Notes under the pieces: model-generated
What the model saw: only the letters and a program-made list of their open reading frames with translations
Database searches by the model: none
What the model was told of the DNA's origin: nothing
Shown here: positions 6,714 to 36,078 of the stretch, one piece after another
Numbering within the stretch: the stretch's first letter is position 1
Layout of the letters: the number at the start of each line of letters is the position of its first letter
Virus record (IMG/VR): IMGVR_UViG_3300032242_001495
Span: 1-41,572 of that record
DNA from: a virus
Length of the DNA: 41,572 bases
Direction: 5' to 3' (one strand)
Made by a program: the position numbers and the translations under genes

Positions 6714-7901
6714 ATGGCTCTCCCAAGGTATAAATCCTTTATCGGCGTAGGAAAAGAAACCGCACACAGCGCAGGCGCAAATCCTACAGCCGCAACACCA
6801 ACCGACTACTTACCTATTACAAGCATTACGCCGTTTGATAACATCAAGTATCTTGAAGATAAAAACTGGCGTGGGTCAATGGTCGAGGACTACGACATCA
6901 TTCAGGGTAACATCTTCTCTGAGTTCGAGTTTGGCGGCGACGTTTTTGCTGATACCATCGGTTACGTCGTTGGTGGCGTACTTGGCGATATCACCACAAC
7001 TGGCGCATCAGCCCCTTACACTCACGCCATCTCGTTGAAAAACAGCGGTAACGGTCAAGCGTCGTCTTACACCCTAACCGACTACAACGCCGTGAACGCT
7101 CGTCAGTTCGCTGGTGTTCAGTTCCACGAATTGGACTTCAAGTTCTCAGCCGACGGTCTACTTGAATACACCGCTAAAGGCACTGGCTTCCAGTCTGCAG
7201 TTAGCGCGACCATCACTACAGCCACAGGTTCAGCAGGCACAGTTACTTACACTGCGCCGAACAACTTCTACGTTGGTCAGGTTGTTTCTATCACGGGCAA
7301 CAGTCAGTCTGCACTGAACTTGTCTAGCCAGACCATCGTTAGCGCGTCAACTACACAGTTCACCATTACCAACGCTGCTACTGGCACTGGCACTGGCGGA
7401 ACTGCAACTGTAGTCACTCCAACCAACTCGTACACGTCAGTAACCGCCGTCCCTGTTTGGTCGGGCGTAACTACACTGGCTGGTTCAACCTCAACTGCAC
7501 TGCAGGACGGTAGCCTTTCAATCAAGCGCACTGCAACTCCGATTTTCACCATTGACGGAAACCAGAACCCATACCAGATTTTCCAAGGTCCTATAATGGT
7601 TGAAGGTACGTTGACTTGGGTAGTTGAAGATGACAGCATTCTGCTGAACTACTTGAATAACACCAAGCCGTCACTAGATATCGACTTTAAGTCACCAGTC
7701 ACTGGTACAACGGTTACCGAAATCAAACTGCACATGACCAAGTGTGCGTTTACAGTCGGCAAGATTGAGCGCACTAAGGACTACGTAGAAGTAACCACTT
7801 CGTTCAAGGCTCTGGGCAACACCACAGATCAAGGAGCGTCAGGCGGTTACTCACCCGTTAAGATTACTCTGGTAAACGCAAAACCATCTAGCACATACTA
7901 A
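6714..7901 (+). CDS. Major tail (tube) protein with inserted beta domain
   Basis: This 395-residue protein follows AGGAGCGTAGAGC. Its ends match siphoviral tail tube proteins: an early beta region (Y-K-S-F-I-G-V-G-K-E-T, later G-D-V-F-A-D-T-I-G), then I-M-V-E-G-T-L-T-W-V and a late K-I-E-R-T-K-D-Y-V-E-V-T-T strand. Residues about 160-245 are a Thr/Ser/Gly-rich insert (N-N-F-Y-V-G-Q-V-V-S-I-T-G) resembling the add-on domains that decorate phage tail tubes. The tail chaperone and tape measure genes follow directly, as expected. Confidence 0.85.
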   Translation: MALPRYKSFIGVGKETAHSAGANPTAATPTDYLPITSITPFDNIKYLEDKNWRGSMVEDYDIIQGNIFSEFEFGGDVFADTIGYVVGGVLGDITTTGASAPYTHAISLKNSGNGQASSYTLTDYNAVNARQFAGVQFHELDFKFSADGLLEYTAKGTGFQSAVSATITTATGSAGTVTYTAPNNFYVGQVVSITGNSQSALNLSSQTIVSASTTQFTITNAATGTGTGGTATVVTPTNSYTSVTAVPVWSGVTTLAGSTSTALQDGSLSIKRTATPIFTIDGNQNPYQIFQGPIMVEGTLTWVVEDDSILLNYLNNTKPSLDIDFKSPVTGTTVTEIKLHMTKCAFTVGKIERTKDYVEVTTSFKALGNTTDQGASGGYSPVKITLVNAKPSSTY

Positions 7902-7920
7902 CACGGAAGGAAGGCACTAA

Positions 7921-8289
7921 ATGTCAGAACAAGTTAATATCACAGGGGGCTGGGTCAAGTTACGCTCAGCCGACGTTGTTCCTGAGCGACTTCGTCGTCC
8001 ACTCATTGAGCGCACCGCACAGGGCGCGCAGATGATGGCGAACATGGATGAAGAATCAGCGGACAGTAACGTTATTAGGTTTTGGAACGAATACAACGAC
8101 TTGCTTACCGTTGCGATGGTTTCGGAGTGGTCGTTTGGTGGCGAAGTTTCGCTTGATTCAATTCTGGACTTACCAGCAAAAGCGTATGATGACGTGCAGG
8201 CGTTGGTTGCTCCGTTTATCACACAACTATTACCGAATTTCGAGCCTGATGCCGACCCAAAAGTAATTACCGAGAACTCCGACGTTTAG
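7921..8289 (+). CDS. Tail assembly chaperone, short (zero-frame) product
   Basis: The ATG at 7921 follows GGAAGGAAGG. The 122-residue product lies between the tail tube and tape measure genes, where siphoviruses keep the gpG-like chaperone. It has an R-R-P-L-I-E-R-T-A-Q-G helix and an acidic C-terminal region. It ends at the TAG at 8287-8289, 24 bases after a slippery heptamer that would let some ribosomes make the longer product. Chaperones of this kind coat the tape measure protein during tail assembly and are absent from the virion. Confidence 0.8.
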   Translation: MSEQVNITGGWVKLRSADVVPERLRRPLIERTAQGAQMMANMDEESADSNVIRFWNEYNDLLTVAMVSEWSFGGEVSLDSILDLPAKAYDDVQALVAPFITQLLPNFEPDADPKVITENSDV

Positions 8290-8483
8290 AATGGGTTCTG
8301 AAAGGCGGACAACCCGACGAGCGTTATCCGCAAACGTCATACTTCAGAGACTACATGATAGCGTCGCAGTTCGGCTGGACTAAAGACCAAATCGACCAAC
8401 AGCCTGCGGTTTGGTTAGACTGGATGCTAGAAATACATCAGGTCGTTGAAACCGTAAAGGCTGAAGCAGGACAGGGATTGTAA
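7921..8483 (+). CDS. Tail assembly chaperone, long product by -1 frameshift
   Basis: Reading C-CCA-AAA at 8256-8262 and slipping back one base puts ribosomes in a frame open from 8250 to the TAA at 8481-8483. This adds 73 residues after P-K: first S-N-Y-R-E-L-R-R-L-E-W, then a segment with W-T-K-D-Q-I and W-L-D-W-M-L-E-I-H-Q, and a final helix. The second frame has no start codon of its own at the right place, and its W-rich helical content matches gpT-like extensions. Its TAA overlaps the tape measure ATG. Coordinates span the whole shifted gene. Confidence 0.82.
8256..8262 (+). promoter_or_regulatory. Programmed -1 frameshift site (CCCAAAA)
   Basis: This is a perfect X-XXY-YYZ heptamer in the reading frame of the 7921 gene (C CCA AAA). 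Both tRNAs can re-pair after slipping back (CCA to CCC, AAA to AAA). The -1 frame opens only a few bases upstream and continues to the tape measure gene, as expected for tail chaperone frameshifting. Confidence 0.85.
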
Positions 8484-10708
8484 TGGCAGGAATGGGAGAT
8501 TTTCTTCCGCCAGTTGTTTTTGAACTTCGTGCGGTAACGGGTCAGTTTCAAGCGAAAATGGCGGAAGCCAAGGGCGAATTAACTGCTCTTGAAGCGACTG
8601 GTGCATCTTCGGGTGCGCGTTTTGCTACTGCCCTGAAGTTCGGTCTAATTGGTGGCGCGGTTGCTCTCGGTGCTATTTCCGCTATTGCGGTCCACGAAGC
8701 CAACAAACTACAAGAAGCACAAACTCGCTTAAAAACCGCACTTGAAGCACAACATCGTCCAACCGAGCGCATTATGGGCGCGGTTGAAGCCCTTTCGGTC
8801 AATTATCGCAGTTTGGGTTTTGGGGCTGACGACGTTACTGACGCGTACGGTCGTTTGGAGATAGCGTTACAAGACCCGACTAAAGCGATGAAGTTGATGG
8901 GCGTCACTGCCGATTACGCACGATTCAAGCATATGGACCTTGCTTCGGCGGCTCGCATTATGGCTCGTGCTTCTCAAGGTTCAGCCCGTGCGTTTAAAGA
9001 ACTCGGTATCTCGATGGATACGAGCATTAAAGACCCGACTGCTCGCGCGAACAAGGCTTTTGCGGAACTAACTAAACGACTTGGTGGTCAGGCTCAGGCG
9101 TACACCAAGACGTTTGCTGGCACACTTCAAGTTCTGAAAACCAAACTACAGGCAGCATTCGAAACGCTTGGCACAAAGTTGCTACCCGCACTTCAAAGTT
9201 TTGGCGAATGGTTAAACAACGTTGTACTGCCTGCGTTACAAGGTTTCATCGACGGATTAACTGGAAAAAACGGCTTAGCCAAAGGGTTTAGCGACAGCGC
9301 AAGATACGCATTCAATTTCGGCAAAGTGATTATTGGCGTATTCAAAATCGCATGGCAGTTTAAGGATTTATTGCTTTTTATCGGCGGTCTGCTTGTCACA
9401 ATGTGGATTGGGTCAAAAATCTACGCTGGTATTCAGGCTATCGTTAGCGCACTGAAAATCGTGCGTGGAGCGTTTGTTGCAACCGAAGCAGCAGCCGACG
9501 CGGTGGTTGTTGCGGAAGCAGCAGCGACTGGCGGATTCTCACTTGTCGCTGCTGGTATTGCAGCGACCGCAGCGATTGCGCTTGTTGGCGGAATTGCTTA
9601 CGCTGTCACCAAGGGCATAGGGACGACTGACACTGGTGGCGACGGAAAAGTCAAAGTGCCAACTGGTTTGGGCGGTCTTCCTGCCGATTACAAACCTAAA
9701 CCCCCGCCAGACCTCAGTGGGGGTGGGGGTGATGGTAGTGGCGGAGACAAAAACACTCCGCGAACAAAGGCTGCTGACGCGTTAAAAGCGTTAAAACAAC
9801 AAATCGCTGACTACAAGAAAAACGTTCGCGACAACTTGACCGCTGGCTCTGACGTAGTCTCGTTACAACAAACTGCTCGCGCTCAGGCTGACGAACTTTA
9901 TCAAAAAATGCAGTCTGACGCCCGCGCGCGCGTATCCGCGTTAGGCGGTACAAGCGAACAGGCAGACGCAGTGGCGTCAAATATTAAAAAGCCAGTAGCC
10001 CAAAGCATCGTTTCCGCCATGAAGGGCAAAGTCAGCAAGTTAAAAACGTTCTACGCTTTGTTGCGTCGTCTCATGAAGAAGGGACTTCACAATTCGGTTT
10101 TACAACAGTTAATTGCAGCAGGTCCTGACGGCGGTATTAGCGCAGCGCAAGAAATCCTTGGTCTCGGCGTTGAAAAAATCAACTCGCAAGACTACCAAAT
10201 CGGAGCGTGGGCTGCTAAGATTTCAAATCTTGGCGCAAAACTTGAGTATGGTTCAGCGTTAAAAACCGCGACAGACAACGCTTTAGCCGAAGCCCGTTGG
10301 AATGCAACGCATATTGTTAAAGCGGTAAAGCAAGCATCAACCGATATTATCACTTCCACTGACCAAACCACTCAGGCAGCGAAAAAGCACGCCACTACTG
10401 CACACAACGACCACAAGCACCTAGCAACCAAGTCGGATTTCAGGTTTTACGAATGGAACAAACTAGGTAACATAGCGGAACAAAACGCAAAATCGGCGCG
10501 TTTGCTTCAGTGGATAAAAGACCACGCCAATCCTGTGACTCCAATCGTAACTCCAACTCCCACGCCAACCACATCACAGTCGTCTTTCACTATCAAGTTA
10601 AGCGTGGGCGGTAAAGAACTATCTACCGTGATACAAGACGCCATCGTACAGTACGAACGCCGTAATGGTAGCAACGGCACAAATCATCGGCATGGCGCAG
10701 TGGTATAA
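8483..10708 (+). CDS. Tape measure protein
   Basis: The largest helical tail protein here (741 residues), overlapping the chaperone stop by one base. It begins with the R-A-V-T-G-Q-F-Q-A-K-M-A-E-A helix typical of tape measures. It has hydrophobic segments near residues 50-70, about 295-320 and about 350-380, a Gly/Pro-rich linker (about 408-430), and long charged Lys/Ala/Gln helices. Tape measures set tail length and enter the host envelope. The length would fit a tail of roughly 110 nm by the usual 1.5 angstrom per helical residue, which is only a rule-of-thumb inference. No lytic transglycosylase or peptidase motif is seen. Confidence 0.88.
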   Translation: MAGMGDFLPPVVFELRAVTGQFQAKMAEAKGELTALEATGASSGARFATALKFGLIGGAVALGAISAIAVHEANKLQEAQTRLKTALEAQHRPTERIMGAVEALSVNYRSLGFGADDVTDAYGRLEIALQDPTKAMKLMGVTADYARFKHMDLASAARIMARASQGSARAFKELGISMDTSIKDPTARANKAFAELTKRLGGQAQAYTKTFAGTLQVLKTKLQAAFETLGTKLLPALQSFGEWLNNVVLPALQGFIDGLTGKNGLAKGFSDSARYAFNFGKVIIGVFKIAWQFKDLLLFIGGLLVTMWIGSKIYAGIQAIVSALKIVRGAFVATEAAADAVVVAEAAATGGFSLVAAGIAATAAIALVGGIAYAVTKGIGTTDTGGDGKVKVPTGLGGLPADYKPKPPPDLSGGGGDGSGGDKNTPRTKAADALKALKQQIADYKKNVRDNLTAGSDVVSLQQTARAQADELYQKMQSDARARVSALGGTSEQADAVASNIKKPVAQSIVSAMKGKVSKLKTFYALLRRLMKKGLHNSVLQQLIAAGPDGGISAAQEILGLGVEKINSQDYQIGAWAAKISNLGAKLEYGSALKTATDNALAEARWNATHIVKAVKQASTDIITSTDQTTQAAKKHATTAHNDHKHLATKSDFRFYEWNKLGNIAEQNAKSARLLQWIKDHANPVTPIVTPTPTPTTSQSSFTIKLSVGGKELSTVIQDAIVQYERRNGSNGTNHRHGAVV

Positions 10709-17082: not shown

Positions 17083-17100
17083 ACTAAGCCCCCCAAAACC

Positions 17101-17173
17101 GACCCCCATCGGATTCCGCGAGGCAGTTCCCACTCTCTCCTGCCTTTAGCGACGCGCCGATGGGGGTCTTTTT
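17101..17173 (+). terminator. Intrinsic terminator with extended branched stem
   Basis: A perfect 12-bp stem (17101-17112 with 17157-17168) is followed directly by TTTTT (17169-17173). The enclosed 44 bases fold further: CGCG (17117-17120) with CGCG (17153-17156) and AGGCAG (17121-17126) with CTGCCT (17140-17145). It ends the regulator transcript and separates it from promoter P2 12 bases downstream. Confidence 0.88.
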
Positions 17174-20590: not shown

Positions 20591-21265
20591 ATGAGCAGAG
20601 TAACAAAGACCAACAGCGTTGAAGGCGTAATGATGGTTGAAGGCGTACAGTACGACGTAAAAGTATCACTACAAAGAAGCCACGGACGTAGCGCACGCCG
20701 TAGCAAAGTCATGATTCACGCAAGCGAAATCGAATCACTAGTTTTCCCTGACGCTCCATACTGGGTATACGATGAAGACAAAGAGACCGCAGAATACAAA
20801 GCCAAGTACGCTACTTGGTACAAGGTTCAGGTCAAGACCGTAGCCAACTGGCGCGCATTCATCGCAGCAGCAGGTCGCGCAGGAATGACCGAGTTCAACT
20901 CGCTTGAACTTAAATGGAATGGTGACAATTTTGAGTTCACCGCACCGCAGACCGCAACCGATTGGTACGACATCAATGACTACGTGGTCCGCATCGCTCC
21001 AGTTGGCACATTTGAAGCCGAGCGCGTAGCAAGTGCAGACCGTAAGACTGAAGCAGACCGCAAGTTAACAACCGCAACCGACCTTGCGCTTGAAGCGTTT
21101 GCTAACACTCCTGAGATGTTTATCGCCCAAATCAATTTCGAGGACTCAACCTACTACTTCGGCAAAGCGAACAACGGCAAGGTCTACCAAGTCAGTTCAA
21201 GCGCGATGTTTGACGTTCGTTACGCGGTAAACCGCAGAGCAGACGCGGACGTGACTAATGCTTAA
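20591..21265 (+). CDS. Hypothetical early protein upstream of purB, 224 aa
   Basis: The ATG at 20591 follows the leader purine tract; in-frame starts farther upstream lie in the promoter. The 224-residue protein has a beta-rich start with M-M-V-E-G-V-Q-Y-D-V-K-V, a middle with W-Y-K-V-Q-V-K-T-V, and an end like a small beta domain (A-Q-I-N-F-E-D-S-T-Y-Y-F-G-K-A). Not recognised. It overlaps purB by 8 bases, so the two should be translated together. Confidence 0.6.
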   Translation: MSRVTKTNSVEGVMMVEGVQYDVKVSLQRSHGRSARRSKVMIHASEIESLVFPDAPYWVYDEDKETAEYKAKYATWYKVQVKTVANWRAFIAAAGRAGMTEFNSLELKWNGDNFEFTAPQTATDWYDINDYVVRIAPVGTFEAERVASADRKTEADRKLTTATDLALEAFANTPEMFIAQINFEDSTYYFGKANNGKVYQVSSSAMFDVRYAVNRRADADVTNA

Positions 21266-22550
21266 CCGATACGAGGACGACTTCATCGCTGAAGTCTGGT
21301 CCGACACAAGCAAAATCGCCCGCTGGGTCGAGGTCGAGTTGGCAGTGCTCAGTGCGCAGGTCGTAGAGGGAGTACTGCCAGACTCGGCTTGGAAGCAAGC
21401 GGTCAATCAGCCAGTGCCGACACCCGAGCAAGTACGCGAGCAAGAGCAGTACACCCGTCACGACGTAGTGGCGTTCCTTGACGCTTGGGGCGCGGAGTTC
21501 GCGCACCTAGGCATGACCAGCAGTGACTTGGTCGAGACCGCGCAGGCACTAGCCATTGAGCAGACCACGCGCTACATCGTCGCCCTCACAGTTGAACTGT
21601 CAACAGAGTTGCACCACCAAGCAACAAAGCACTGGCGCACGTACCGCGTCGGGCGCACCCACGGACAGCGAGGTACGGTGGACCTCTGGGGGCATAGGGT
21701 CGCAGACTTCATGCTTGCGCTCGACCGCGGTGCACTCCGCTTAATCAGCGCGCTGGCGGATTGCGCAGTCGCCAAGATTAGCGGACCGACTGGCACGTAC
21801 GCCGACATCAGTCGCGACGTCGAATGCGTGGTCGCCGAAGAACTTGGGCTACGACCAACACCAGTTGCCAGCCAGATTGTCATGCGTGACTCGCTGGTCC
21901 ATTGGGCGCACTGCCTATCGAATTTGGTGTCGGTGTGCGAAGCCATCGCGACCGAAATCCGCTTGTCCGCACACGGTAACGTGGGCGAGATTCGCGAGTC
22001 ATTCGGCTCACGGCAGAAGGGTTCAAGTGCTATGCCACACAAGCGCAACCCCATCACCGCCGAGCGGATTTGTGGAATGGCGAGACTAGCACGGACCTAC
22101 GCCACATCACTGGAGTCAACCGTGGTCCAGTGGCACGAGCGGGACATGGCGCACTCATCGATTGAGCGAGTGGTCCTGCCCGACTTGAGCCACGCGGTTT
22201 GCTTCGTACTGAGCGAGACCCGCAACTTGGTCGAGAGCATGAAGGTCAACACGCACATCATGTTCGAGCAGGTCATGGTCCACGATGACGTCTACAGCCA
22301 CCGTGTCCTAGCCGCTCTTATGCGGGCGGGGATTCCGCGGAAGCAGGCGCACGACGTGGTCCAAGAAGCGTCACGGGACGCCCACAAGACTTCCTTTGGG
22401 CGCGAAATACGGGCGAAGGTATCCAAAGCCCTTCCAGATACCTTCGTGGACTGGGAAGAGGTATTCTCGCTGGAGAGTTCCGTCCAAGGACTGAACTGGC
22501 TAGGCGAGATTTTGAAAGACACACAACACAACCAACTAGGAGAAAACTAA
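21258..22550 (+). CDS. purB: Adenylosuccinate lyase (PurB)
   Basis: A full-length, apparently active lyase of 430 residues, close to the usual bacterial length. It belongs to the fumarase/aspartase superfamily and removes fumarate from adenylosuccinate or SAICAR. Key parts: R-H-D-V-V-A-F (His68), T-S-S-D (87-90), R-T-H-G-Q (133-137, His135) and the signature S-S-A-M-P-H-K-R-N-P (256-265) on the flexible catalytic loop. It is expressed with a protein of unknown function from P5. In this phage, which carries a PurZ-like enzyme, its likely substrate is succino-2-amino-dAMP, giving dZMP. As I recall, known Z-genome phages leave this step to the host enzyme. It could also simply boost adenine nucleotide supply. 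Confidence 0.92.
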   Translation: MLNRYEDDFIAEVWSDTSKIARWVEVELAVLSAQVVEGVLPDSAWKQAVNQPVPTPEQVREQEQYTRHDVVAFLDAWGAEFAHLGMTSSDLVETAQALAIEQTTRYIVALTVELSTELHHQATKHWRTYRVGRTHGQRGTVDLWGHRVADFMLALDRGALRLISALADCAVAKISGPTGTYADISRDVECVVAEELGLRPTPVASQIVMRDSLVHWAHCLSNLVSVCEAIATEIRLSAHGNVGEIRESFGSRQKGSSAMPHKRNPITAERICGMARLARTYATSLESTVVQWHERDMAHSSIERVVLPDLSHAVCFVLSETRNLVESMKVNTHIMFEQVMVHDDVYSHRVLAALMRAGIPRKQAHDVVQEASRDAHKTSFGREIRAKVSKALPDTFVDWEEVFSLESSVQGLNWLGEILKDTQHNQLGEN

Positions 22551-22834: not shown

Positions 22835-23328
22835 GTTACCACATCAGGGACGAGCGTGGCGTAGCCATGTGTAAGACGACGTACCCCGACAATAACGACC
22901 GACTGTGCGTTCTATGCGAAATGTACGCCAACACGGACAAAGACCACCCGTGTGACGTGTACCAAGAGCAGAGCGGATTCGTCGCCAGATGCGAATGTGG
23001 CTGGAGTAGTCGAGTCAAACCAACTCCTAGTCACGCCGAATCTGAGTGCCGAGCGCACTGGCGCGAGACGCTAGGTGAACTAGTGGTCTCAAAGCCAAAG
23101 AAACCGAAACCCGAAGCCAAGACGAAAGTGTGCCACTGCGGTTGCACCGAGTTGACAGCAGGCGGACGGTTCAAAGCAGGACATGACGCCCGATGGCTAG
23201 CCAAACTACGGTTAGCCGTCAACACAGGCGAAATGTCCGAGCAAGAAGCCAAGCGTCAGGTTGGCGAAGTAAGCGAAAAACTGTTGCTGAAATTTCAGCA
23301 CGCACTACAAGGAAGAGTAGTATCGTAA
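22831..23328 (+). CDS. Cys-rich zinc-binding protein
   Basis: This 165-residue protein has two probable metal sites: C-V-L-C-E-M with D-H-P-C-D and then C-E-C-G-W (about 26-57), and C-H-C-G-C-T-E-L-T-A-G-G-R-F-K-A-G-H-D (about 106-124), a motif often seen in actinophage proteins of unknown role. A Lys-rich linker (K-P-K-K-P-K-P-E-A-K) separates them. It lies between purB and a nuclease gene in one overlapping operon, so a DNA-binding role is plausible but unproven. Confidence 0.62.
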   Translation: MSYHIRDERGVAMCKTTYPDNNDRLCVLCEMYANTDKDHPCDVYQEQSGFVARCECGWSSRVKPTPSHAESECRAHWRETLGELVVSKPKKPKPEAKTKVCHCGCTELTAGGRFKAGHDARWLAKLRLAVNTGEMSEQEAKRQVGEVSEKLLLKFQHALQGRVVS

Positions 23329-24194
23329 TGCCCATCATCTCATTTAGCGAATTGGACACATATCGACAGTGTCCGTTCAAGCACCAACTCGCGTACGGCG
23401 AACGCTGGGTCTCACCCGTAGACTCAGCAGCGCTGGACCGAGGTAAGCGAGTGCACACCGTCCTCGAAAACTGGTACGAAGCATTGAAGCGTGGAGACAA
23501 CACCACGATTGAACAGGTCGCACGCGAAAGCGAGGTCGTATTCGACCAGAATGGCGATTACCTAGACGACATCGGCGAACTCGTACACTGGATTGTGCAG
23601 GGCTACGGCGAACAGTACGGGCGAGACGAACAATGGAAAGTAGTCGAGGTCGAACACGACTTCGTGCTACCGCTACCCAAGCCCGACGGCAAGAACAGTA
23701 ATATCAAGTTGAAGGGCAAGATTGACTTACTGGTCAACTGGCGCGGACGCTTGTGGCTGGTCGACCACAAGACAGCAGCGCGACTACCGAGCGACAAAGA
23801 ACTCGACCTCGACGTCCAGTTCGGGCTGTATGCGTGGGCGATGCGTCAACTTGGCTACCCAATCCACGGCATGATTTACAACACGCTTCGCACACAACGC
23901 AACAAGGGCGAGATGGCGTTAACCGACCGATTCAGTCGGACACTCATCGCAAAGAGCGACGCCGAGTTAGACCGTCTCGCACTGGACGCGTACCAAGACG
24001 CATATCAAGCGTACGCTGGCATACGCAAATCAAACAAAACGCAGGTGGACCTACCGCGCCATTACAACACCGACACGTGCAGGTGGCGTTGCCCGTACAC
24101 CGAAGCGTGCTTGTTCGGAGCGAAAGACGGACGCGGTGGCTCGCGCGGTTACTTGATTGAGACGGGTTTCGTTCAAAACTTCACCCGACACTAA
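23328..24194 (+). CDS. Cas4/RecB-like PD-(D/E)XK nuclease with iron-sulfur cluster
   Basis: The ATG at 23328 (TAATG overlap) is the true start; the upstream in-frame extension overlaps another gene. The 288-residue protein starts S-F-S-E-L-D-T-Y-R-Q-C-P-F-K, then R-G-K-R-V-H-T-V-L-E-N. The nuclease core is L-K-G-K-I-D-L-L, followed by L-W-L-V-D-H-K-T-A and a helix with Q-F-G-L-Y-A-W-A. The end has C-R-W-R-C-P-Y-T-E-A-C. One N-terminal plus three C-terminal Cys is the 4Fe-4S arrangement of Cas4, AddB and RecB-family phage exonucleases. It probably works in recombination or DNA repair with the ATPase downstream. No CRISPR array is present. Confidence 0.85.
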   Translation: MPIISFSELDTYRQCPFKHQLAYGERWVSPVDSAALDRGKRVHTVLENWYEALKRGDNTTIEQVARESEVVFDQNGDYLDDIGELVHWIVQGYGEQYGRDEQWKVVEVEHDFVLPLPKPDGKNSNIKLKGKIDLLVNWRGRLWLVDHKTAARLPSDKELDLDVQFGLYAWAMRQLGYPIHGMIYNTLRTQRNKGEMALTDRFSRTLIAKSDAELDRLALDAYQDAYQAYAGIRKSNKTQVDLPRHYNTDTCRWRCPYTEACLFGAKDGRGGSRGYLIETGFVQNFTRH

Positions 24195-24288: not shown

Positions 24289-25119
24289 ATGGCAACTGCT
24301 AAGAAAGCGAGAGCAACACTCGCGGACCAGCGCGAAGTAGTGAAGATTCTTTACTACGGAGACGCAGGTTCAGGCAAAACAACTGCGATGTCAAGTGCAT
24401 CGCGTCTAGGTCCGATTCTCTACATTGACGCAGAGAGCGGACTAAAGCGAGGACCACTGGCTCGGCTCGGGATTCCGACCGACCAGATTGAACCGCATCA
24501 AACCATCACATTCGAATCGCTAGAGCAGGTCTACTTCGAGGTCAAAGCACGACTCGACGACGACCCAACTGCGATTTCGGCTGTGATTTTGGACTCAGTT
24601 ACCGAGATTCAAAAGATTCTGCTCGAGAACATCATCGGCAAAGCGGTCACCAAGGCGTCAAGCCGTGGCATGGACCGCGACCCGTTTCAGATTGACCGAG
24701 CAGATTGGGGCGTCGTAACCGAACAAATGCGACGACTCACACGACGATTCCGAGACCTGCCATGTCACGTGGCATTCGGAGCGTTACCTAAGCGCGAAGT
24801 AGATGACGACGGAAGTGTCACTTACTCGCCAGCGTTGACACCAGCATTCCAGACAGACCTCATGGGATACGTTGATGTCATCATTCACACCGAGGTTCGC
24901 GAAATCGGTGGCAAAGAGTTCCACATCGGTACATGTAAACCAGTTGGCAAGTTCACTGGCAAAGACCGATTTGGCATTTTGCCACAGACTCTCGTTGACC
25001 CAACACTGGACCGTGTTGTCGCATACGTAAATGGCGACCTCACAGCCGAAACCGATTCACGCCAAAAAGAAGCGCGTGAAGCATCACAACAGCGCGAAAC
25101 CGCGCAGGAAGAGAAATAA
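24289..25119 (+). CDS. Sak4-like RecA-fold ATPase (single-strand annealing / recombination)
   Basis: The 276-residue protein has an early Walker A (G-D-A-G-S-G-K-T-T, residues 24-32) and a Walker B-like strand (S-A-V-I-L-D-S-V-T-E, near 105), as in phage Sak4 and related AAA ATPases of the RecA core type. Later parts include R-F-R-D-L-P-C-H-V-A-F-G-A and a charged, Gln/Glu-rich tail. Sak4 proteins help single-strand annealing and often sit beside an SSB-like protein and an exonuclease, exactly the neighbours here. Confidence 0.8.
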   Translation: MATAKKARATLADQREVVKILYYGDAGSGKTTAMSSASRLGPILYIDAESGLKRGPLARLGIPTDQIEPHQTITFESLEQVYFEVKARLDDDPTAISAVILDSVTEIQKILLENIIGKAVTKASSRGMDRDPFQIDRADWGVVTEQMRRLTRRFRDLPCHVAFGALPKREVDDDGSVTYSPALTPAFQTDLMGYVDVIIHTEVREIGGKEFHIGTCKPVGKFTGKDRFGILPQTLVDPTLDRVVAYVNGDLTAETDSRQKEAREASQQRETAQEEK

Positions 25120-25120
25120 C

Positions 25121-25552
25121 ATGAAACTCAATAAGGTGATGGCGTCAGCCGTCGAAGAAGCATCAGGTGGTTCAGGCTTTGAACCGTTAGAAGAGGGTGT
25201 TTACACTGTGCGCTTGCGTGGTGTTGACGTCCGTGAAGGACAAAAAGGTCCGTACTGGGTTTGGGAGTTCGAGATTCCAGACGGTGAAGAGTTCGCAGGT
25301 CGTCGCTTCTGGTTGAACACCAGCCTGAGCGAAGCAGCACTGTGGAAGTTGAAGGAAGTGTTCGGTGCGTTCGGTGCTACACCAGCCACAGACACCGATG
25401 AACTGTTGGGCAAGCGTGTGCGCGCTGTTGTCATTCAGCGCACAATCCAAATGGGTGCACGTGCTGGTGAAGTAACCAACCAGATTGAGACAGTCAAGCC
25501 AGTTGGCGACGCAGACGTAGCCGACAGCAAGAAAGACGACTTCGCATTCTAA
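25121..25552 (+). CDS. DUF669-like single-strand DNA-binding protein
   Basis: The ATG at 25121 is right after the ATPase stop; the longer upstream frame is a shadow. The 143-residue protein has a short helical start, a beta core with V-Y-T-V-R-L-R-G-V-D-V-R-E-G-Q-K-G-P-Y-W-V-W-E-F-E-I-style alternation, and F-W-L-N-T-S-L-S. It ends in an acidic tail K-K-D-D-F-A-F. The DUF669 family pairs with Sak4-type ATPases in phages, and the acidic D-D-F-x-F end resembles SSB tails that recruit partners. The SSB role is inference. Confidence 0.72.
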   Translation: MKLNKVMASAVEEASGGSGFEPLEEGVYTVRLRGVDVREGQKGPYWVWEFEIPDGEEFAGRRFWLNTSLSEAALWKLKEVFGAFGATPATDTDELLGKRVRAVVIQRTIQMGARAGEVTNQIETVKPVGDADVADSKKDDFAF

Positions 25553-25624: not shown

Positions 25625-28024
25625 ATGCCAAACAAAGAACAAGCACTAGAACTATTTGACGCAGGTCTGCTCCCACTGCCAGCCCGAGGTAAAGCACCGA
25701 CGGTCTCATGGCGTGACGTAGCGCAGGACCGCCCATCGCGAGCAAAAATCGCCAGTTGGTTCGACAAAGACCGCAACATCTGGATAGCCACAGGCGAACC
25801 GAGCGGAATCGTCGTCATCGACTGCGACTCACGCGGTGGTGACGTTTATTGGCGCGAACGGCTAGGCGCAGAACTGCTAGACAACACCACATGTGTCAAG
25901 ACCAGCAAAGGCTACCACTACTGGCTACGCATTCCAGTTGGAGAGAGCATCAGGTCGTGGTCCAGCGGAATCGCACAGCGAGAAATGGGCATCTCATTCG
26001 ACATTCGCGGTGACGGTGGTGGCGTAATCGCTCCGCCGAGCGTACATGAGTCAGGTCATGTTTACACATTCGTGCGAGGGCTGGATTGCCTGCAGGACGC
26101 ACCGATAGCCAAGATTCAACAGACCGCAACCGACAGCGACACAGACCCAAACGGACCAAAAAGCCTGCTATCCAGCCTACTAAGTGACCCACCATCTGAG
26201 GGCGGTCGCGACGTGTGGATAACTCGAGTCGCAGGTCACCTAGCCAAAATCGTGCCGTACCGCGACGCCTATCTGTCGCTGTTGCACACCATTAACCGCG
26301 CGCTGCCTGAACCGCTGACCGAGGACGAAATCGAGAAGAAAATCGGCGTGTGGGACAAAGAGCACGCCAAGCCAGACGTACCGACAGCCGACTCAGGTTG
26401 GCTTATTGGTGACGGGCTTTGGCTCTACACCGAGACCGTAACTGAAAGCGGTGGAGTTCGCGTGTCTGGAACAGACCGCTGGTGCAACGCCGACCTCGAA
26501 GCGCGCGGTGTTATCGACGGACCGCTCGGTCGCACCTACGCCGTCACGCTCCATCGGTCCGACGGCGAGAGTCGCGACGACCTAATCAAGGGTTCAATGC
26601 TTGGACGCATGAACGACACACTCAGTTGGCTAGCCAAGCACGGCGTCTCCGTTGTAGCCCCAAAGAACGACAACCGTAGCCGCGTCGCTGTAGGCGCACG
26701 ATTGCTCCGCTATTTAGAGAGCCAACAGCCGACGCTGTACAAGGAAGTACCGCACCTTGGCTGGGTGGACGGTATCGGATTCGTCACGCATGAGGGCGTA
26801 ATCACGGCGTCTGGTATGAAAGCCCACGAAGGTGTGATGCCAAATCCAGCCCTGCAGAACCTTGCTCCGTTCGTGTACGGAATGGGCAACCCCGACCGCG
26901 CAGTGGAAGTCTTGCGCGAAGTGTTGACCTTCCACGACGAGACCGTGACCGCTGTATTCGGCGCGTGGTGGATAGCCACACTGCTCAAAGGTCAGTACAT
27001 GGGCGCAATCGGTCACTTCCCTTACTTCGCTATTGAAGCGTCCAGCGAGAGCGGTAAAACTCGAGGATTCTTTAGGCTAATGCTCAACTTGGCTGGCACA
27101 ACGCGATTCGGCGAGTGGACCAAGGCAGCAACACGCGACGCAATTGGCGCGCACCGAAACGGAATCGTTCACATTGACGACTCAAACCGACTAGACAACA
27201 TCGCAGACTTACTGCGCCAAGCAACTGGCGAAGGGTCTGAAGGCAAGAAGGCTGCAGACAACACAGGCACAGTTGATATCAAGTTGGTGTCACCAGTTTT
27301 AATCACGGGCGAATCGCTTGGCGAATTGGGCGGTGGCGAGAAAGCACAGCGCGACAGGCGCGTATTGCTAACTGACGTGCCAAGTCCAGTTGGACGCAAA
27401 AGCACGAAGGGCGACTACCCACAATGGGACGACGTTAAACGACTCGAGCGCGTTGAAGGCGATTTGAGTAAATACGCTGGTACGATGGTCATGCTAGCAC
27501 TTCAGCGTGAACACATGATTGGCGAAGTAACTGACCTTAGAACTGGACATGGTCGTCACCACGAAGTGCTAGCGATTCTTCGAAATGCTGCTAGGATTCT
27601 AGCGGACATCATCGACGACGAGAGTGTCGTGCGCCTAGTGGACGCATGGTGCGAAGGACAGCGCGATTTCGGCTCAGAGAACACGCTGGTAACGAAGTTA
27701 CTACCGTGGGCTATCATTGACGAGTTTGGGCAGATGATTGACCGCATGGGGGGCGAGCCACCAGCGTTCGTTGAGAATGGTCTGGTCTACCTACACCCTG
27801 ACCGCTTGGCTGCTGCTTGGCAGAAGGAATTGAGGAAGCGCGGTAAGAACGACCGCCTAGATAGTCCCGAAGCCATCAGAGCGCAGCTCCGTGCCCTCGG
27901 AATAACTGGGTCGGTGTTCAAGCGCACTGGAGTCGGCAGAGACGCTCCGAAAGCCCGTTACGTGGCTCTAGACGGTACTTGGTCAGAGCGCGTCATCGAA
28001 ATCGCAAACAACGGTTGGGAGTAA
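25625..28024 (+). CDS. Primase-polymerase / helicase (PrimPol + DUF927-like ATPase)
   Basis: A 799-residue replication protein. Residues 1-145 form a Prim-Pol domain of the archaeo-eukaryotic primase family: V-V-I-D-C-D-S-R (D66, D68), T-S-K-G-Y-H-Y-W (H98), S-F-D-I-R-G (D126). About 260-390 is a DUF927-type region. The ATPase follows with E-A-S-S-E-S-G-K-T-R (Walker A, 472-479), then a helicase-like part ending D-R-R-V-L-L-T-D-V. The C-terminal ~180 residues look like a DNA-binding tail. It should prime and unwind DNA. PrimPol proteins are known from the Z-genome cyanophage S-2L. It starts the replication block after the hairpin at 25569. Confidence 0.85.
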   Translation: MPNKEQALELFDAGLLPLPARGKAPTVSWRDVAQDRPSRAKIASWFDKDRNIWIATGEPSGIVVIDCDSRGGDVYWRERLGAELLDNTTCVKTSKGYHYWLRIPVGESIRSWSSGIAQREMGISFDIRGDGGGVIAPPSVHESGHVYTFVRGLDCLQDAPIAKIQQTATDSDTDPNGPKSLLSSLLSDPPSEGGRDVWITRVAGHLAKIVPYRDAYLSLLHTINRALPEPLTEDEIEKKIGVWDKEHAKPDVPTADSGWLIGDGLWLYTETVTESGGVRVSGTDRWCNADLEARGVIDGPLGRTYAVTLHRSDGESRDDLIKGSMLGRMNDTLSWLAKHGVSVVAPKNDNRSRVAVGARLLRYLESQQPTLYKEVPHLGWVDGIGFVTHEGVITASGMKAHEGVMPNPALQNLAPFVYGMGNPDRAVEVLREVLTFHDETVTAVFGAWWIATLLKGQYMGAIGHFPYFAIEASSESGKTRGFFRLMLNLAGTTRFGEWTKAATRDAIGAHRNGIVHIDDSNRLDNIADLLRQATGEGSEGKKAADNTGTVDIKLVSPVLITGESLGELGGGEKAQRDRRVLLTDVPSPVGRKSTKGDYPQWDDVKRLERVEGDLSKYAGTMVMLALQREHMIGEVTDLRTGHGRHHEVLAILRNAARILADIIDDESVVRLVDAWCEGQRDFGSENTLVTKLLPWAIIDEFGQMIDRMGGEPPAFVENGLVYLHPDRLAAAWQKELRKRGKNDRLDSPEAIRAQLRALGITGSVFKRTGVGRDAPKARYVALDGTWSERVIEIANNGWE

Positions 28025-28026
28025 CC

Positions 28027-28302
28027 ATGGTAAGAGACCTATTCATGTACGCAGGGCTGTTCACAGCGGGATTGACGGTTGGGGGGTTCGTGTCGGTCTG
28101 GGTTGTAGCCCCCAAACCGCCTGAGCCGAAAAAGGCTAAGGTGACGGTGACCGTGTCCAAAATCTGCACCCACGCTCTGGTCGAGTACAAAAACGACCAC
28201 CCAATCATCACATTCAGCCCGTGCTCATGTGAGACAGAGGGCGTGGCACAGGGTGAGACACAAATCGAACAAGACAAGGAGTCAAGCGGTGTCTCGGATT
28301 AG
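28027..28302 (+). CDS. Small membrane-anchored protein
   Basis: The ATG at 28027 is used, two bases after the primase stop; the longer frame to 27979 overlaps the primase. The 91-residue product has one membrane segment near the start (L-F-M-Y-A-G-L-F-T-A-G-L-T-V-G-G-F-V, about 5-22), then V-S-V-W, a Pro/Lys stretch, a short beta region with two or three Cys and an acidic tail. It could be a small lipoprotein-like or anchored phage protein. Function unknown. The gene's 3' half lies inside the iteron-like cluster. Confidence 0.55.
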   Translation: MVRDLFMYAGLFTAGLTVGGFVSVWVVAPKPPEPKKAKVTVTVSKICTHALVEYKNDHPIITFSPCSCETEGVAQGETQIEQDKESSGVSD

Positions 28303-28470
28303 AAGCCTATGTGCCACAATTAGTGCCACAGGGGGGTTGAGACACACAGAACCCCGTCGTTTGGGGAAGAAGGACCTTGTGTCTCGGTGTCTCATATTTT
28401 GGAATAGAATTAATTACGTGTGCGCGCATGCGCGCCTAAACCTACTCGTTCTCTCGGAAGGGTGAGACAC
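28231..28470 (+). other. Iteron-like repeat cluster, candidate replication origin
   Basis: Within 240 bases the 7-mer GAGACAC or its complement GTGTCTC occurs six times: 28255-28261, 28289-28295, 28339-28345, 28379-28385, 28387-28393 and 28464-28470, plus a near copy at 28231. GTGCCAC or GTGGCAC occurs three more times (28243, 28311, 28323). An A/T-rich stretch follows (28394-28417), then the perfect palindrome GCGCGCATGCGCGC (28422-28435). The cluster lies between the primase and polymerase genes and partly in non-coding DNA, as many phage origins do. A regulatory operator array is the alternative. Confidence 0.6.
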
Positions 28471-30315
28471 ATGAAGATAGATAAACCAACCGAAGTGCTA
28501 CCAGATGTTACAGGACTGGTCGTCGCCGTGGATACTGAGACCAGCGGTCTACACGTTGATGATGGCGCGACCGTGTCAGTAGTTAGTGTGGCGTGGCGAG
28601 AAGAAGGCACACAGCCACGACTAGAAGCAGGCATTGTCGGATTTGCGTTCCCGTTCGACCAAGGACGCTTCGCTGAAAAGACAGGCACAACCGCCAGCCC
28701 GTTCGACGAGGACATCAACCTCGACCGAGACGAGTGGGCGCACCTGATGTTCTGGCTCAGTAAGCAACAGTTAGTGTTCCACAATGCCAAGTTCGACCTG
28801 CACATGCTAGCCGAAGGCACGCGTGAATGGGGTGGCGTGGACCTAGTGGCACAGACCATCTGGGACACCCAAATCACACATCAACTGTTCGAACCGCTGT
28901 TGACCAGTGGACTCAAACCGACCTGCGCACGACTGTTCGGCGAACACGTGGCGCAAGAGCAACACGACGTCCAAACCGCGCTACGCAAGCAGGGTACAGG
29001 GCTGACCAAACGGTACGACCTATTGGACTGGTCAGTTGTCGGACCGTACGCAACACAAGACGCGATGCTGACCTACCGCCTAGCCGAATGGCAGTGGCGC
29101 AGACTTGAGACCGACGACCAGCACCTAGCCGTACTAGCGGACCGCGAAGTCGAACTAATGAAGGTCCTATACAAAATGGAAAAGCGCGGTATCGGATTCG
29201 ACGCCAAGCGAGCCGAAAAATCGGCGGACATCTTGCGCGCGCTCAAGGTCGAACTCGAAAACGAATTGCCGTTCAAGCCGACCATTCCAGCGGCTAAAGC
29301 CTACTATTATGGCGAACTGGGTCTGATACCGAGCAAAGTCGGCGCAAGCGGGTCACCAAGCCTAGACAATGAGACCGTGACCAAACTAGCCAAGAAGGAC
29401 GTGCCACACGCGAAAACGTACCTACGCTGGACTGAAGTGAAAAGCGCGCTAGAGAAATGGTACGGCAACTGGGGCAAACTGGTTGGACAAGATGGGCGAC
29501 TACGCACGAACTTCAGGCAGACCAAAGTAGTTAGTGGTCGGTTGAGTGTAGAGCGTGTGCAGTTGCAGGCGATTCCGCACGACTACCAACTGAAACAACT
29601 GTTCGGCGATGGAGTTGAAGGCGTGCGTGCGTTCTTCCAACCGAAAGGCAACCACCAGTTGTGGGAGATTGATATTAGCCAAGCCGAGATTCGCGTAGCC
29701 ACAGCGGTGTCTAACTGCGTGCCAATGCGCGAGCGATTAATGCGTGGCGAGGACGCACACGACGCGACCACAATGTTGGTATTTGGCATTACTAAAGACA
29801 GCCCTGATTGGGAGCAGTACCGCTCAGTCGGCAAGCGACTCACGTTTGGTATGTTGTACGGCGCGGGAGTGCGCACTACACGCGAGCAAATCAAAATGCA
29901 CACTGGCGTTGATGCGAGTGAGGGCGAAGTGCGCAAATGGGTGGACCAGTACCGCAGTGCGTTCCCCGAGTTCGTGCGCGCTGCAAAGTACGCAGACCAA
30001 GCAGTGCAGAAGCGTGGATACGTGAAACTGATTAGTGGACGCTTGCGTCACTGGGGTCTCGATGAGCAAAGTCATAAAGCGTTTAACGCAGTCATTCAAG
30101 GTGGAGTGGCGGAAGCGATGAAAATGGCGATGGTCGAAGTTGAACGTCAATTCCCTGATTTGTTGCTGTTACAGATTCATGATTCGATGGTGTTGGAAGT
30201 TCCAAACAAGAACGCGGAGCAAGTTGTCCAGCAAGTGCGTGATGTGCTAGTGGGCGTGTTTGAGTCGCTGTTCAACATCGAGTTCAAGGCGGACTATAAA
30301 CAATGGGCAAAATGA
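28471..30315 (+). CDS. Family A DNA polymerase with 3'-5' exonuclease (DpoZ candidate)
   Basis: The ATG at 28471 is chosen over the GTG at 28420 because GGAAGGG precedes it at good spacing. The 614-residue enzyme has an exonuclease start (V-A-V-D-T-E-T, D21 and E23), then the polymerase motifs: A, E-I-D-I-S-Q-A-E-I-R (D401); B, R451-x3-K455-x3-F459-x3-Y463; C, Q-I-H-D-S (H570, D571, S572). Most family members have H-D-E in motif C. No 5'-3' exonuclease domain is present, as usual in phages. Its presence with purZ and mazZ suggests the polymerase that works with dZTP (DpoZ in known Z phages). Its gene stop overlaps the next start. Confidence 0.85.
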   Translation: MKIDKPTEVLPDVTGLVVAVDTETSGLHVDDGATVSVVSVAWREEGTQPRLEAGIVGFAFPFDQGRFAEKTGTTASPFDEDINLDRDEWAHLMFWLSKQQLVFHNAKFDLHMLAEGTREWGGVDLVAQTIWDTQITHQLFEPLLTSGLKPTCARLFGEHVAQEQHDVQTALRKQGTGLTKRYDLLDWSVVGPYATQDAMLTYRLAEWQWRRLETDDQHLAVLADREVELMKVLYKMEKRGIGFDAKRAEKSADILRALKVELENELPFKPTIPAAKAYYYGELGLIPSKVGASGSPSLDNETVTKLAKKDVPHAKTYLRWTEVKSALEKWYGNWGKLVGQDGRLRTNFRQTKVVSGRLSVERVQLQAIPHDYQLKQLFGDGVEGVRAFFQPKGNHQLWEIDISQAEIRVATAVSNCVPMRERLMRGEDAHDATTMLVFGITKDSPDWEQYRSVGKRLTFGMLYGAGVRTTREQIKMHTGVDASEGEVRKWVDQYRSAFPEFVRAAKYADQAVQKRGYVKLISGRLRHWGLDEQSHKAFNAVIQGGVAEAMKMAMVEVERQFPDLLLLQIHDSMVLEVPNKNAEQVVQQVRDVLVGVFESLFNIEFKADYKQWAK

Positions 30316-31679: not shown

Positions 31680-31834
31680 CCTGCCCAGACTGCCAGCACA
31701 CGGGCACGGATTTTGCGGAGCAACGGCACAAGCAAGCGTGCGGACTGACCTGCACATTCGTGGAACTGAACTGCCCGAAATGCCACTACATTGTGGACGC
31801 TCGCGTGGAGCACGTGAAAGGGTGTAAAGCGTGA
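31676..31834 (+). CDS. Small zinc-ribbon protein
   Basis: A 52-residue product coupled to both neighbours (ATGA at 31676, GTGA at 31831). It contains C-P-D-C-Q-H near its start, a central C-x3-C, and C-P-K-C-H followed by H-V-K-G-C near its end: seven Cys in 52 residues, so one or two zinc sites are likely. Function unknown; its position before the Mom-like gene makes a partner role possible. Confidence 0.6.
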   Translation: MTCPDCQHTGTDFAEQRHKQACGLTCTFVELNCPKCHYIVDARVEHVKGCKA

Positions 31835-32496
31835 GCAAACCCGAATACGCAGTCGCGCCGATTGACAGCAAGGACACCTACCCGTACCTGCTTGAAATCC
31901 ACTACGCCAAACGCATACCAGCAATCGCCTACGCATTCGGGCTGTTCTGTGATGGCGAACTGGTCGGCGTGTGCACATTCGGAAGCCCAGCATCGTCCAC
32001 GCTCCAGAAAGGGCTATGTGGACCAGCGCACGCGGACAAAGTACTTGAACTCAACAGGCTGTGCTTGAAGTACAACCGCCCGAACGAAGCGTCCATATTG
32101 GTGGGAGCGTCGCTCAAACGACTGCCCAAGCCGACCGTCGTAGTGAGTTTCGCTGACACGTCGCACAACCACACGGGCGTCGTATACCAAGCGACCAACT
32201 TCATCTACACGGGGCTGACGGTGGCGCGCACGGAATGGGCAGTGAAGGGCTTGGAGCACCTACACAGCCGAGCACTCGGACACATAGCCAAGAAACTCGA
32301 GGGAGACCAGAAAGACCTAGAGAAAATCAAAATGTTATACGGCGACCGCTTCTATTACCGATCCCGTCCGCGCAAGCACAGATACGTGGCGATAATGGCG
32401 TCAAAAACAGACAAGCGGACACTGCTAAAGGCACTCAAATACGAGCCACAGCCGTACCCAAATCAGAACTTGACTGACCTGCAAGTCGTAGGTTAG
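31831..32496 (+). CDS. Mom-like GNAT-fold DNA modification protein
   Basis: It starts with GTG at 31831. The 221-residue protein has the pattern of the Mom family (GNAT superfamily), which in phage Mu adds a methylcarbamoyl group to the exocyclic amine of DNA adenine: E-I-H-Y-A-K-R-I-P, F-G-L-F-C-D-G-E-L-V-G-V, F-G-S-P-A, E-L-N-R-L-C-L, N-E-A-S, V-V-V-S-F-A-D, Y-Q-A-T-N-F-I-Y-T-G and a basic R-P-R-K-H-R-Y segment near the end. Its gene ends 32 bases before purZ and contains the purZ promoter candidate. In a Z genome the target amine could be on 2-aminoadenine. Modification activity is inferred from family resemblance. Confidence 0.72.
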   Translation: MSKPEYAVAPIDSKDTYPYLLEIHYAKRIPAIAYAFGLFCDGELVGVCTFGSPASSTLQKGLCGPAHADKVLELNRLCLKYNRPNEASILVGASLKRLPKPTVVVSFADTSHNHTGVVYQATNFIYTGLTVARTEWAVKGLEHLHSRALGHIAKKLEGDQKDLEKIKMLYGDRFYYRSRPRKHRYVAIMASKTDKRTLLKALKYEPQPYPNQNLTDLQVVG

Positions 32497-32528: not shown

Positions 32529-33566
32529 ATGTCGAAAGTCAGTGTAGTAGTCGGAGGTCAATTCGGCTCAGAAGGTAAGGGCGCAGTCGCTGGACACCTA
32601 AGTCAGGGCGACGATTACAGCGTCATCGGAGTTCGCGTAGCAGGACCAAATGCTGGTCACACCGTCTACGGAAACGGACCAGACGGCGAGGACAACTACG
32701 CGTGGAAACTGCGCACTGTTCCAGTCACAGCCGTAACAAATCCGCTCAGTACGCTCATCATCGCAGCGGGGTCAGAGATTGACTTTGACGTCTTGCGAAG
32801 CGAAATAGACGCGCTGGACAAAGCGGGGTACAACGCAAGCGACCGACTGTTCATCGACCGCGAAGCAACCGTAATCGACGACAAGCACATCAGGATTGAG
32901 CAGACCAACACAATGCACGAACGCCTAGGCTCAACAGCCAAGGGAATCGGAGCAGCGAGAGCAGCGCGCATTATGCGGACCGCTGAACTGTACGGTGGCG
33001 ACGTCGATACAACCGAAATGCTGAACGACAGCCTGAACAGCCCGTTCAACCACATCATCATCGAAGGCACACAAGGCTACGGGCTAGGGTCGCACGCTGG
33101 CTACTACCCATTCTGCACCAGTAGCGACTGCCGAGCCATCGACTTCCTAGCCATGGCAGGAATAAGCCCGTGGCACGCAGAAGTGACCGAACTGGACGTT
33201 TGGGTAGTCGCACGCACTCACCCGATTCGCGTGGCAGGAAATAGCGGTCCTTTGCTCGGAGAGACCAATTGGGAGCAACTAGGGCTACCAGAGGAACGGA
33301 CAACCGTCACCAATAAAGTACGCCGAGTCGGAAAGTTCGACCCTGAACTGGTCGCCGAAGCGGTTCGTGCTAATGGTGGCGCACCTACGGCGCGACTCGC
33401 GCTGACCATGTTTGACTACGTGTTTCCGCATCTCGCGGGTGCTACAATTGTAACGCAAGAAGATGAAGAAGTCGTGTCTTACATTAAAACTATTCAGCAT
33501 ATGACAGGAGCAAGCGTCGCCCTAGTCGGAACAAGCCCGACCACCATGGCGGCTCTTAATTGGTAA
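32529..33566 (+). CDS. purZ: PurZ: N6-succino-2-amino-2'-deoxyadenylate synthase (PurA-like)
   Basis: A 345-residue adenylosuccinate synthetase-like enzyme, much shorter than bacterial PurA (about 430). The P-loop is G-G-Q-F-G-S-E-G-K-G with Ser14 where PurA has its catalytic Asp. As I recall, this Asp-to-Ser change marks PurZ, which joins dGMP and aspartate to make the precursor of 2-aminoadenine deoxynucleotide. Retained: N-A-G-H-T (His44), G-S-T-A-K-G (134-139), E-G-T-Q-G (179-183), Y-P-F-C-T-S-S-D (193-200), R-T-H-P-I-R-V (229-235) and R-R-V-G-K-F-D-P (265-272). It heads an overlapping operon with mazZ and dut. Plain PurA activity on IMP is the alternative, but the Ser14 substitution argues against it. 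Confidence 0.88.
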   Translation: MSKVSVVVGGQFGSEGKGAVAGHLSQGDDYSVIGVRVAGPNAGHTVYGNGPDGEDNYAWKLRTVPVTAVTNPLSTLIIAAGSEIDFDVLRSEIDALDKAGYNASDRLFIDREATVIDDKHIRIEQTNTMHERLGSTAKGIGAARAARIMRTAELYGGDVDTTEMLNDSLNSPFNHIIIEGTQGYGLGSHAGYYPFCTSSDCRAIDFLAMAGISPWHAEVTELDVWVVARTHPIRVAGNSGPLLGETNWEQLGLPEERTTVTNKVRRVGKFDPELVAEAVRANGGAPTARLALTMFDYVFPHLAGATIVTQEDEEVVSYIKTIQHMTGASVALVGTSPTTMAALNW

Positions 33567-35580: not shown

Positions 35581-36078
35581 ATGAATAACAAACAACGCGC
35601 TGAAAACGCCGAACCGCGAGCGATGAAAGCGATGGCTCTGCGGATTGACGGCTATTCGTACAAGCAAATCGCGGAAGAACTTGGCTACGCAACCGACTCC
35701 GCAGCGTGCGCTGCCGTGCGCAAAATCATCAACTCGACCAAGCGCGAAATGAGTGAAGAACTCAAAGCACTGGAGACCGCTAGGCTAGACGAAGCACTGG
35801 TCATCGCGTGGGAAATCGCACGCAACCCGAAATCCGCTTCACTCACGAAACTGGCTGCGCTAGACCGCGTCATCAAACTGCAAGAGCGACGAACCAAATA
35901 CTACGGGCTGGACCAACCAGACAAACACGAACATATCGTCAGGAGCGAACTTGACAACGAAATCGAGCGACTCATGGCAGAATTGGGACACGTCATCGAA
36001 GAAAATACTGCTCGAGAAACTGCAGGACAAAATGCAGAGTCTCGAGTGGGAACAGACGCTGACCAAACGACGACCTGA
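35581..36078 (+). CDS. Small terminase subunit (probable)
   Basis: The 165-residue protein lies directly before the large terminase. It has an early helix-turn-helix (G-Y-S-Y-K-Q-I-A-E-E-L-G-Y, about 24-36), a long coiled-coil-like helix (E-E-L-K-A-L-E-T-A-R-L-D-E-A-L) and an R-V-I-K-L-Q-E-R-R-T-K-Y-Y-G-L-D segment common in TerS-like proteins. TerS binds the packaging site. Its 3' end overlaps the TerL gene. Role by position plus pattern. Confidence 0.75.
   Translation: MNNKQRAENAEPRAMKAMALRIDGYSYKQIAEELGYATDSAACAAVRKIINSTKREMSEELKALETARLDEALVIAWEIARNPKSASLTKLAALDRVIKLQERRTKYYGLDQPDKHEHIVRSELDNEIERLMAELGHVIEENTARETAGQNAESRVGTDADQTTT

Follow-up and report, generated by a model that had tools for sequence, protein, structure and literature searches.

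Where does this phage begin to copy its DNA? The window, an IMG/VR virus contig of 41.6 kb analysed over its whole length, carries a cluster of short repeats that the original prediction took for a replication origin lying between primase and polymerase genes. The placement is correct: a PrimPol/PriCT-1/putative helicase replication protein, our proposed initiator, is encoded at 25625..28024 on the + strand (PF09250, E 1e-22; PF08708, E 3e-7; phrog_5177, E 7e-119), and a DpoZ-like family A DNA polymerase, PolA, at 28471..30315 on the same strand (PF00476; NF038381 DpoZ, 332 bits against a cut-off of 350). Upstream are genes for a PurB-like lyase (21258-22550), a Cas4-type exonuclease (23193-24194), a Sak4/RecA-like protein (24289-25119) and a DUF669-like protein (25031-25552); downstream are genes for a Mom-like DNA modification protein (31831-32496) and PurZ (32529-33566, score above the NCBIfam cut-off), followed by TerS-like and TerL-like genes at 35581 and 35951, assigned by size and order and about 7 kb from the cluster. 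With PurZ above its cut-off, a polymerase that narrowly misses that for DpoZ and a gene for a PurB-like lyase, adenine is probably replaced by 2-aminoadenine in this phage. That the Mom-like gene lies close to PurZ brings two DNA modification systems together in an unusual way.

The repeats themselves are largely as described. Six exact copies of GAGACAC lie in both orientations within a span of 216 bp: at 28255..28261 (+), 28289..28295 (-), 28339..28345 (+), as a pair 8 bp apart at 28379..28385 and 28387..28393 (both -), and at 28464..28470 (+), where the repeat abuts the polymerase start codon. Three GTGCCAC-type repeats are present as GTGNCAC, namely a palindrome-like GTGGCAC at 28243..28249 (GTGCCAC on the - strand) and two copies of GTGCCAC at 28311..28317 and 28323..28329 (both +), and a degenerate GAGACAG with one mismatch stands at 28231..28237 (+). 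The expectation of about one GAGACAC per 8 kb needed correction: shuffles give 7.9 copies per window, or about one per 5.3 kb. A count of the word over the genome had been proposed as a check, and it cuts both ways, since the total of 8 is ordinary and the clustering is not; with the total at chance level, the clustering alone carries the signal. GAGACAC is the top 7-mer for clustering across the whole window (6 in 240 bp), and in 60 dinucleotide shuffles any 7-mer peaks at 3-4 copies per 240 bp. Only two copies, both in coding sequence, lie outside the cluster, rarer than expected given 7.9 for the window. Short repeats are therefore clustered beyond chance in a non-coding region, as in iteron origins. 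The block also holds 18 GTG/CAC words, about twice the mean of 8.9 and a number attained by 1.1% of windows, and every complete GAGACAC and GTGNCAC repeat contains GTG on one or both strands. GC skew, a further check that had been suggested, does not mark the block: the cumulative curve has its minimum at ~16.0 kb and its maximum at ~35.4 kb and shows no clear switch. Close to that minimum, in the intergenic gap at 16.8-17.2 kb, an inverted repeat followed by a T-run (17096-17173) looks like a transcription terminator.

We compared the block with its counterparts in two close relatives, L002 and L003, whose polymerases are 78-83% identical to that of the window; a search for further close relatives of the block returned these two only. 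Absence of the repeats from such relatives had been named as evidence against an origin, and the repeats are there, in the same places and with the same spacing. The alignment of the 242-bp block across the three phages is gapless except for one base missing at the last repeat of L002. The repeats at 28243, 28255, 28339, 28379 and 28387 are the same in all three phages. The repeat at 28289 is the same in L003 and has one change in L002; that at 28464 is kept in L003 and has its last base changed in L002; that at 28323 is GTGCCAC in L003 and GTGTCAC in L002; that at 28311 is GTGTCAC in L002 and partly lost in L003; and the degenerate copy at 28231 is kept in L002. Within the ten repeats the three phages agree at 89% of positions, within the spacers at 35% (Fisher p 5e-14), so that repeats and spacing are both kept, as is typical of iteron origins, in the two relatives available and apart from the base missing in L002.

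The limits of the conserved unit are sharp. From PrimPol to the first repeat the window, L002 and L003 show no sequence relationship, and gene content there is wholly different in L002 and L003; because the block is intact despite these differences, the conserved unit starts at the first repeat, and it ends at the polymerase start. In the window and L003 the block lies beside PrimPol, and in L002 it stays beside the polymerase, with extra genes placing it 1.3 kb from PrimPol. In the relative's contig L038 (IMGVR_UViG_3300028392_000269, 7400-8930) an insertion of small genes, ~1.3 kb in all, separates PrimPol from the block; by eye, one of them resembles a gene of PAPS-reductase type. Although the window has one open frame across the block, and L002 almost one, we rejected a coding reading: differences fall evenly over codon positions, are mostly non-synonymous and show no codon periodicity, so the fixed spacing is not owed to translation. 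The putative origin at 28229..28470 (neither strand assigned) is thus an ungapped, non-coding block that holds the densest 7-mer cluster of the window, and it is made up of iteron-like repeats, an A/T-rich stretch and an alternating purine-pyrimidine tract.

This last element replaces one that had been proposed. A 14-bp palindrome, GCGCGCATGCGCGC, is indeed present at 28422-28435, but its palindromy is not kept in L002 or L003, and we rejected it as a functional unit; it results from a longer purine-pyrimidine alternation of 21 nt, a Z-DNA-prone type of sequence, at 28415..28435 (strand not assigned). Here the purine-pyrimidine pattern is the same at 21/21 positions in the three phages and all 6 variable positions are transitions, whereas the spacers carry 98 transversions and 86 transitions. 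Alternating runs of at least 20 occur somewhere in 33 of 200 shuffled windows; because long runs are this common, only the place and the conservation of the tract count. The A/T-rich stretch was also correctly noted, at 28394..28416 (strand not assigned). It is partly conserved, reaches 77% A+T over 30 nt and is a candidate unwinding element or promoter -10 region, but the likely 2-aminoadenine genome would strengthen those pairs. If 2-aminoadenine is present, the stretch is not weakly paired, which makes an ordinary melting element doubtful and draws most interest to what the alternating tract may do. Such tracts occur in other phage lineages too, and need not be an adaptation to 2-aminoadenine.

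Relatives of the PrimPol protein occur in 159 phage records, mostly of actinophages. Among the named phages that we fetched, gene order is largely alike (RecA-like, hypothetical, PrimPol, gap), with a non-coding gap usually following PrimPol. In 8 of 12 it is in this gap that a 7-mer clusters most densely within the fetched stretch, and the word changes: GGGTAAC in Hiyaa, Galactica and Keanu, AGTTACA/CTGTAAC (GTTACA) in Moki and Oxynfrius, TGCTAAA in Milani, GACACAC in Olihed and ATACACC in Streptomyces phage Stuff. Long alternating runs also occur in Stuff (21 nt) and Rasovi (18 nt). Among the same 12 phages, Pumancara, Parvaparticeps and Ghobes had no obvious cluster after PrimPol, and that of Rasovi is weak at 7 nt. 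The Hiyaavirus, Korravirus, Goodmanvirus and Stuff gaps thus share with the window their gene order, a repeated 7-mer and in some cases an alternating tract, and differ in a repeat word particular to each genus; their records carry no origin annotation. Clusters lie beside PrimPol in most named relatives examined, and in the Hiyaaviruses the cluster does not lead directly into a polymerase gene. A word that changes while its place stays the same is the pattern to be expected of an origin recognised by a locally encoded initiator.

GAGACAC itself clusters in other phages. Scanning for a double-repeat pattern yielded three unrelated high-GC contigs with 9-12 copies each, all of which have a 20-22-nt alternating tract, a feature absent from the search criteria. 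Further scans enlarged this set to a second lineage, unrelated to the window (L042, L061, L071, L082, L087, L088, L103, L108, L110, L113-L115), with GAGACAC clusters, mostly of 8-12 copies, around an alternating tract and followed by the terminase gene region. A primase-helicase (phrog_21086) was found in seven of these contigs, and the cluster, one per genome, is downstream of its 3' end in 7/7, at distances of ~0.2, 0.2, 0.5, 0.6, 0.8, 1.1 and 3.4 kb (6/7 within 1.1 kb); the seven contigs are related and so are not seven independent cases. In L061 a PrimPol (PF09250) ends 52 bp ahead of the cluster. A primase-helicase precedes the cluster, then, in two unrelated lineages. In five further, unrelated phages (L094, L097, L104, L106, L111) the clusters lie within O-like/HTH_36 replication initiator genes, a homologue of which is found in Labrenzia phage vB_LagS-V1.

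Mere matches to the word prove little, since a control word, CACAGAG, has more of them in viral contigs than GAGACAC (109 vs 40). The surroundings differ: an alternating run of at least 18 lies near the cluster at 0/108 CACAGAG loci and at 7/38 GAGACAC loci. Matches in L052, L075, L085 and L089 were tandem repeats or coding sequence and were discarded, and a scan of a genome collection gave 3 matches, at or below the estimated chance level. Clusters in L092 (10102-10436), L109 (7468-7580) and L095 (1717-1796) stand beside terminase genes, the replication genes being off the contig. A Bacteroidales MAG has two near-identical copies on two contigs (L117, 4722-4818; L118, 929-1030), each combining GAGACAC and an A/T-rich stretch with an alternating GTATATACACGTGTGTATA tract and GTGTCTC in two or three copies.

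We consider it likely that 28229-28470 is the replication origin of this phage; comparison supports this reading well, through the repeats kept in relatives and the clusters of other words at the same spot in other phages, although it does not prove it. The main competitor is an operator or promoter of the polymerase operon, in which a phage or host regulator would control PolA and later genes and the A/T-rich element would be the -10 region. In its favour, the start codon of PolA comes directly after the final repeat, L002 keeps the block next to PolA, a -10-like word (TAGAAT/TAAAAT) is kept at 28405-28410, and the fixed spacing would suit a regulated promoter too. However, a consensus promoter scan found none, and ten sites over 240 bp with an added alternating tract exceed the needs of a simple operator. 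Nor are there scattered stoperators: with 6 of 8 exact copies in one block and the other two in coding sequence, the pattern is not that of an actinophage stoperator system, whose repressor sites are dispersed over the genome. Some clusters elsewhere are not followed by a polymerase gene: none comes directly after that of the Hiyaaviruses, and the terminase region comes after those of the second lineage. We therefore regard an operator as unlikely, although an autoregulated origin would fit both readings, and one that controls PolA as well is quite possible.

That terminase genes adjoin the GAGACAC clusters of the second lineage, L092 and L109 would suit a DNA packaging (pac/cos) site bound by the small terminase, a reading made extremely improbable by the distance of ~7 kb to the terminase genes in the window, by the position of the cluster between PrimPol and PolA, and by its location inside the initiator gene in the O-like/HTH_36 phages. 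The sole neighbour that the examined contexts share is a replication initiator or primase-helicase rather than a polymerase or terminase, which favours an origin over both a polymerase-operon operator and a packaging site. A structured RNA or large DNA stem-loop, either a pRN1-type origin or a polymerase-leader RNA element, would explain the inverted copies by pairing, and pRN1-type origins are indeed stem-loops downstream of a PrimPol-helicase gene (PMC4234260). Copies in opposite orientation can pair, and the consensus fold of the three sequences has 57 pairs, but only 1/57 changes on both sides, the covariation term is unfavourable (+3.5), and paired positions are mostly invariant repeats and so uninformative on pairing. 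Lineages with other words show iterons rather than one stem-loop. Finding no covariation, we rejected a conserved RNA fold and hold a stem-loop of either kind to be very unlikely.

Returning to the origin, we infer that the block works as one, which protein binds it, and how melting and priming would come about. The PrimPol-helicase encoded just upstream would bind the GAGACAC repeats, and perhaps GTGNCAC too, through its C-terminal domain, and assemble on repeats in both orientations. The adjoining A/T-rich and alternating segments would take up the strain and open or shift to a non-B form; the helicase part would then widen the bubble, the PrimPol/PriCT-1 part would prime on the GTG-containing template that every complete repeat offers, and the polymerase encoded next door would extend the primers. 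A 120-residue structural model of the PrimPol C-terminus, of low confidence (pLDDT 60), gives a hint only that it resembles winged-helix origin binders: VIA-align matched the model to the winged-helix domains of SaPIBov1 Rep and ORC/Cdc6 at Z 5.6-6.7 (<8). A 544-residue model reached pLDDT 34. Foldseek with the C-terminal model returned no significant match, and a sequence search of solved structures no match.

In phage lambda the iterons lie inside the O gene. The block shares with lambda O-type origins its iterons beside an A/T-rich stretch, and GAGACAC clusters do lie in the O-like/HTH_36 genes of other phages, but the repeats of the window are intergenic. A search for an HTH_36 protein (PF13730) drew a blank in the window and in relatives; the check for O-like PHROG families covered the ten genes nearest the block. 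Another likeness is to the SaPI Rep and SCCmec Cch2 helicases, which recognise iterons just downstream of their own genes: there too the short repeats are intergenic and just downstream of a replicative helicase gene, the C-terminal domain of the helicase binds them, and priming by CCPol-MP within the iterons has been reported (PMC7581432). The window differs in having primase and putative helicase as one PrimPol protein, whose binding is our proposal, and in its repeat word, dual orientation and added 21-nt alternating tract. In pRN1 a stem-loop that is essential to the origin is found downstream of orf904, the gene of the PrimPol-helicase, and its describers extend the idea of a downstream origin to some phages (PMC4234260); ORF904 and NrS-1 PrimPol prime at GTG (PMC8718748). 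ORF904, a PrimPol-SF3 helicase, and our locus share a Prim-Pol protein, a downstream non-coding element and GTG/CAC words, but the pRN1 element is a 100-nt stem-loop with no iterons (PMC4234260), while in the window short repeats are conserved at fixed distances and covariation lends a stem-loop no support.

An iteron origin downstream of an initiator helicase is thus of a known kind, that of SaPI Rep and SCCmec Cch2; what is apparently new is the conserved alternating tract and a GAGACAC word common to unrelated initiators. Our literature search found no origin described for these actinophages, nor any phage origin said to include an alternating tract. More tentatively, there may be a class of origin, spread across unrelated phage lineages with unrelated initiators, in which GAGACAC boxes in two orientations lie around or beside a conserved ~20-nt alternating tract that acts as a supercoil-driven opener, instead of or together with an A/T-rich element. 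Such an opener, if true, would suit genomes with 2-aminoadenine in place of adenine.

We know of no mapped origin for most PrimPol phages, and the comparison yields a simple prediction for laboratory phages of the Korravirus and Hiyaavirus groups, that a 7-mer repeated in the gap downstream of PrimPol marks the origin. For phages presumed to carry 2-aminoadenine the locus poses the question of how an origin opens when its A:T-type pairs have three hydrogen bonds, and whether the alternating tract does this. The matched sets of initiator and repeat word would also allow study of how an initiator changes its recognition sequence.
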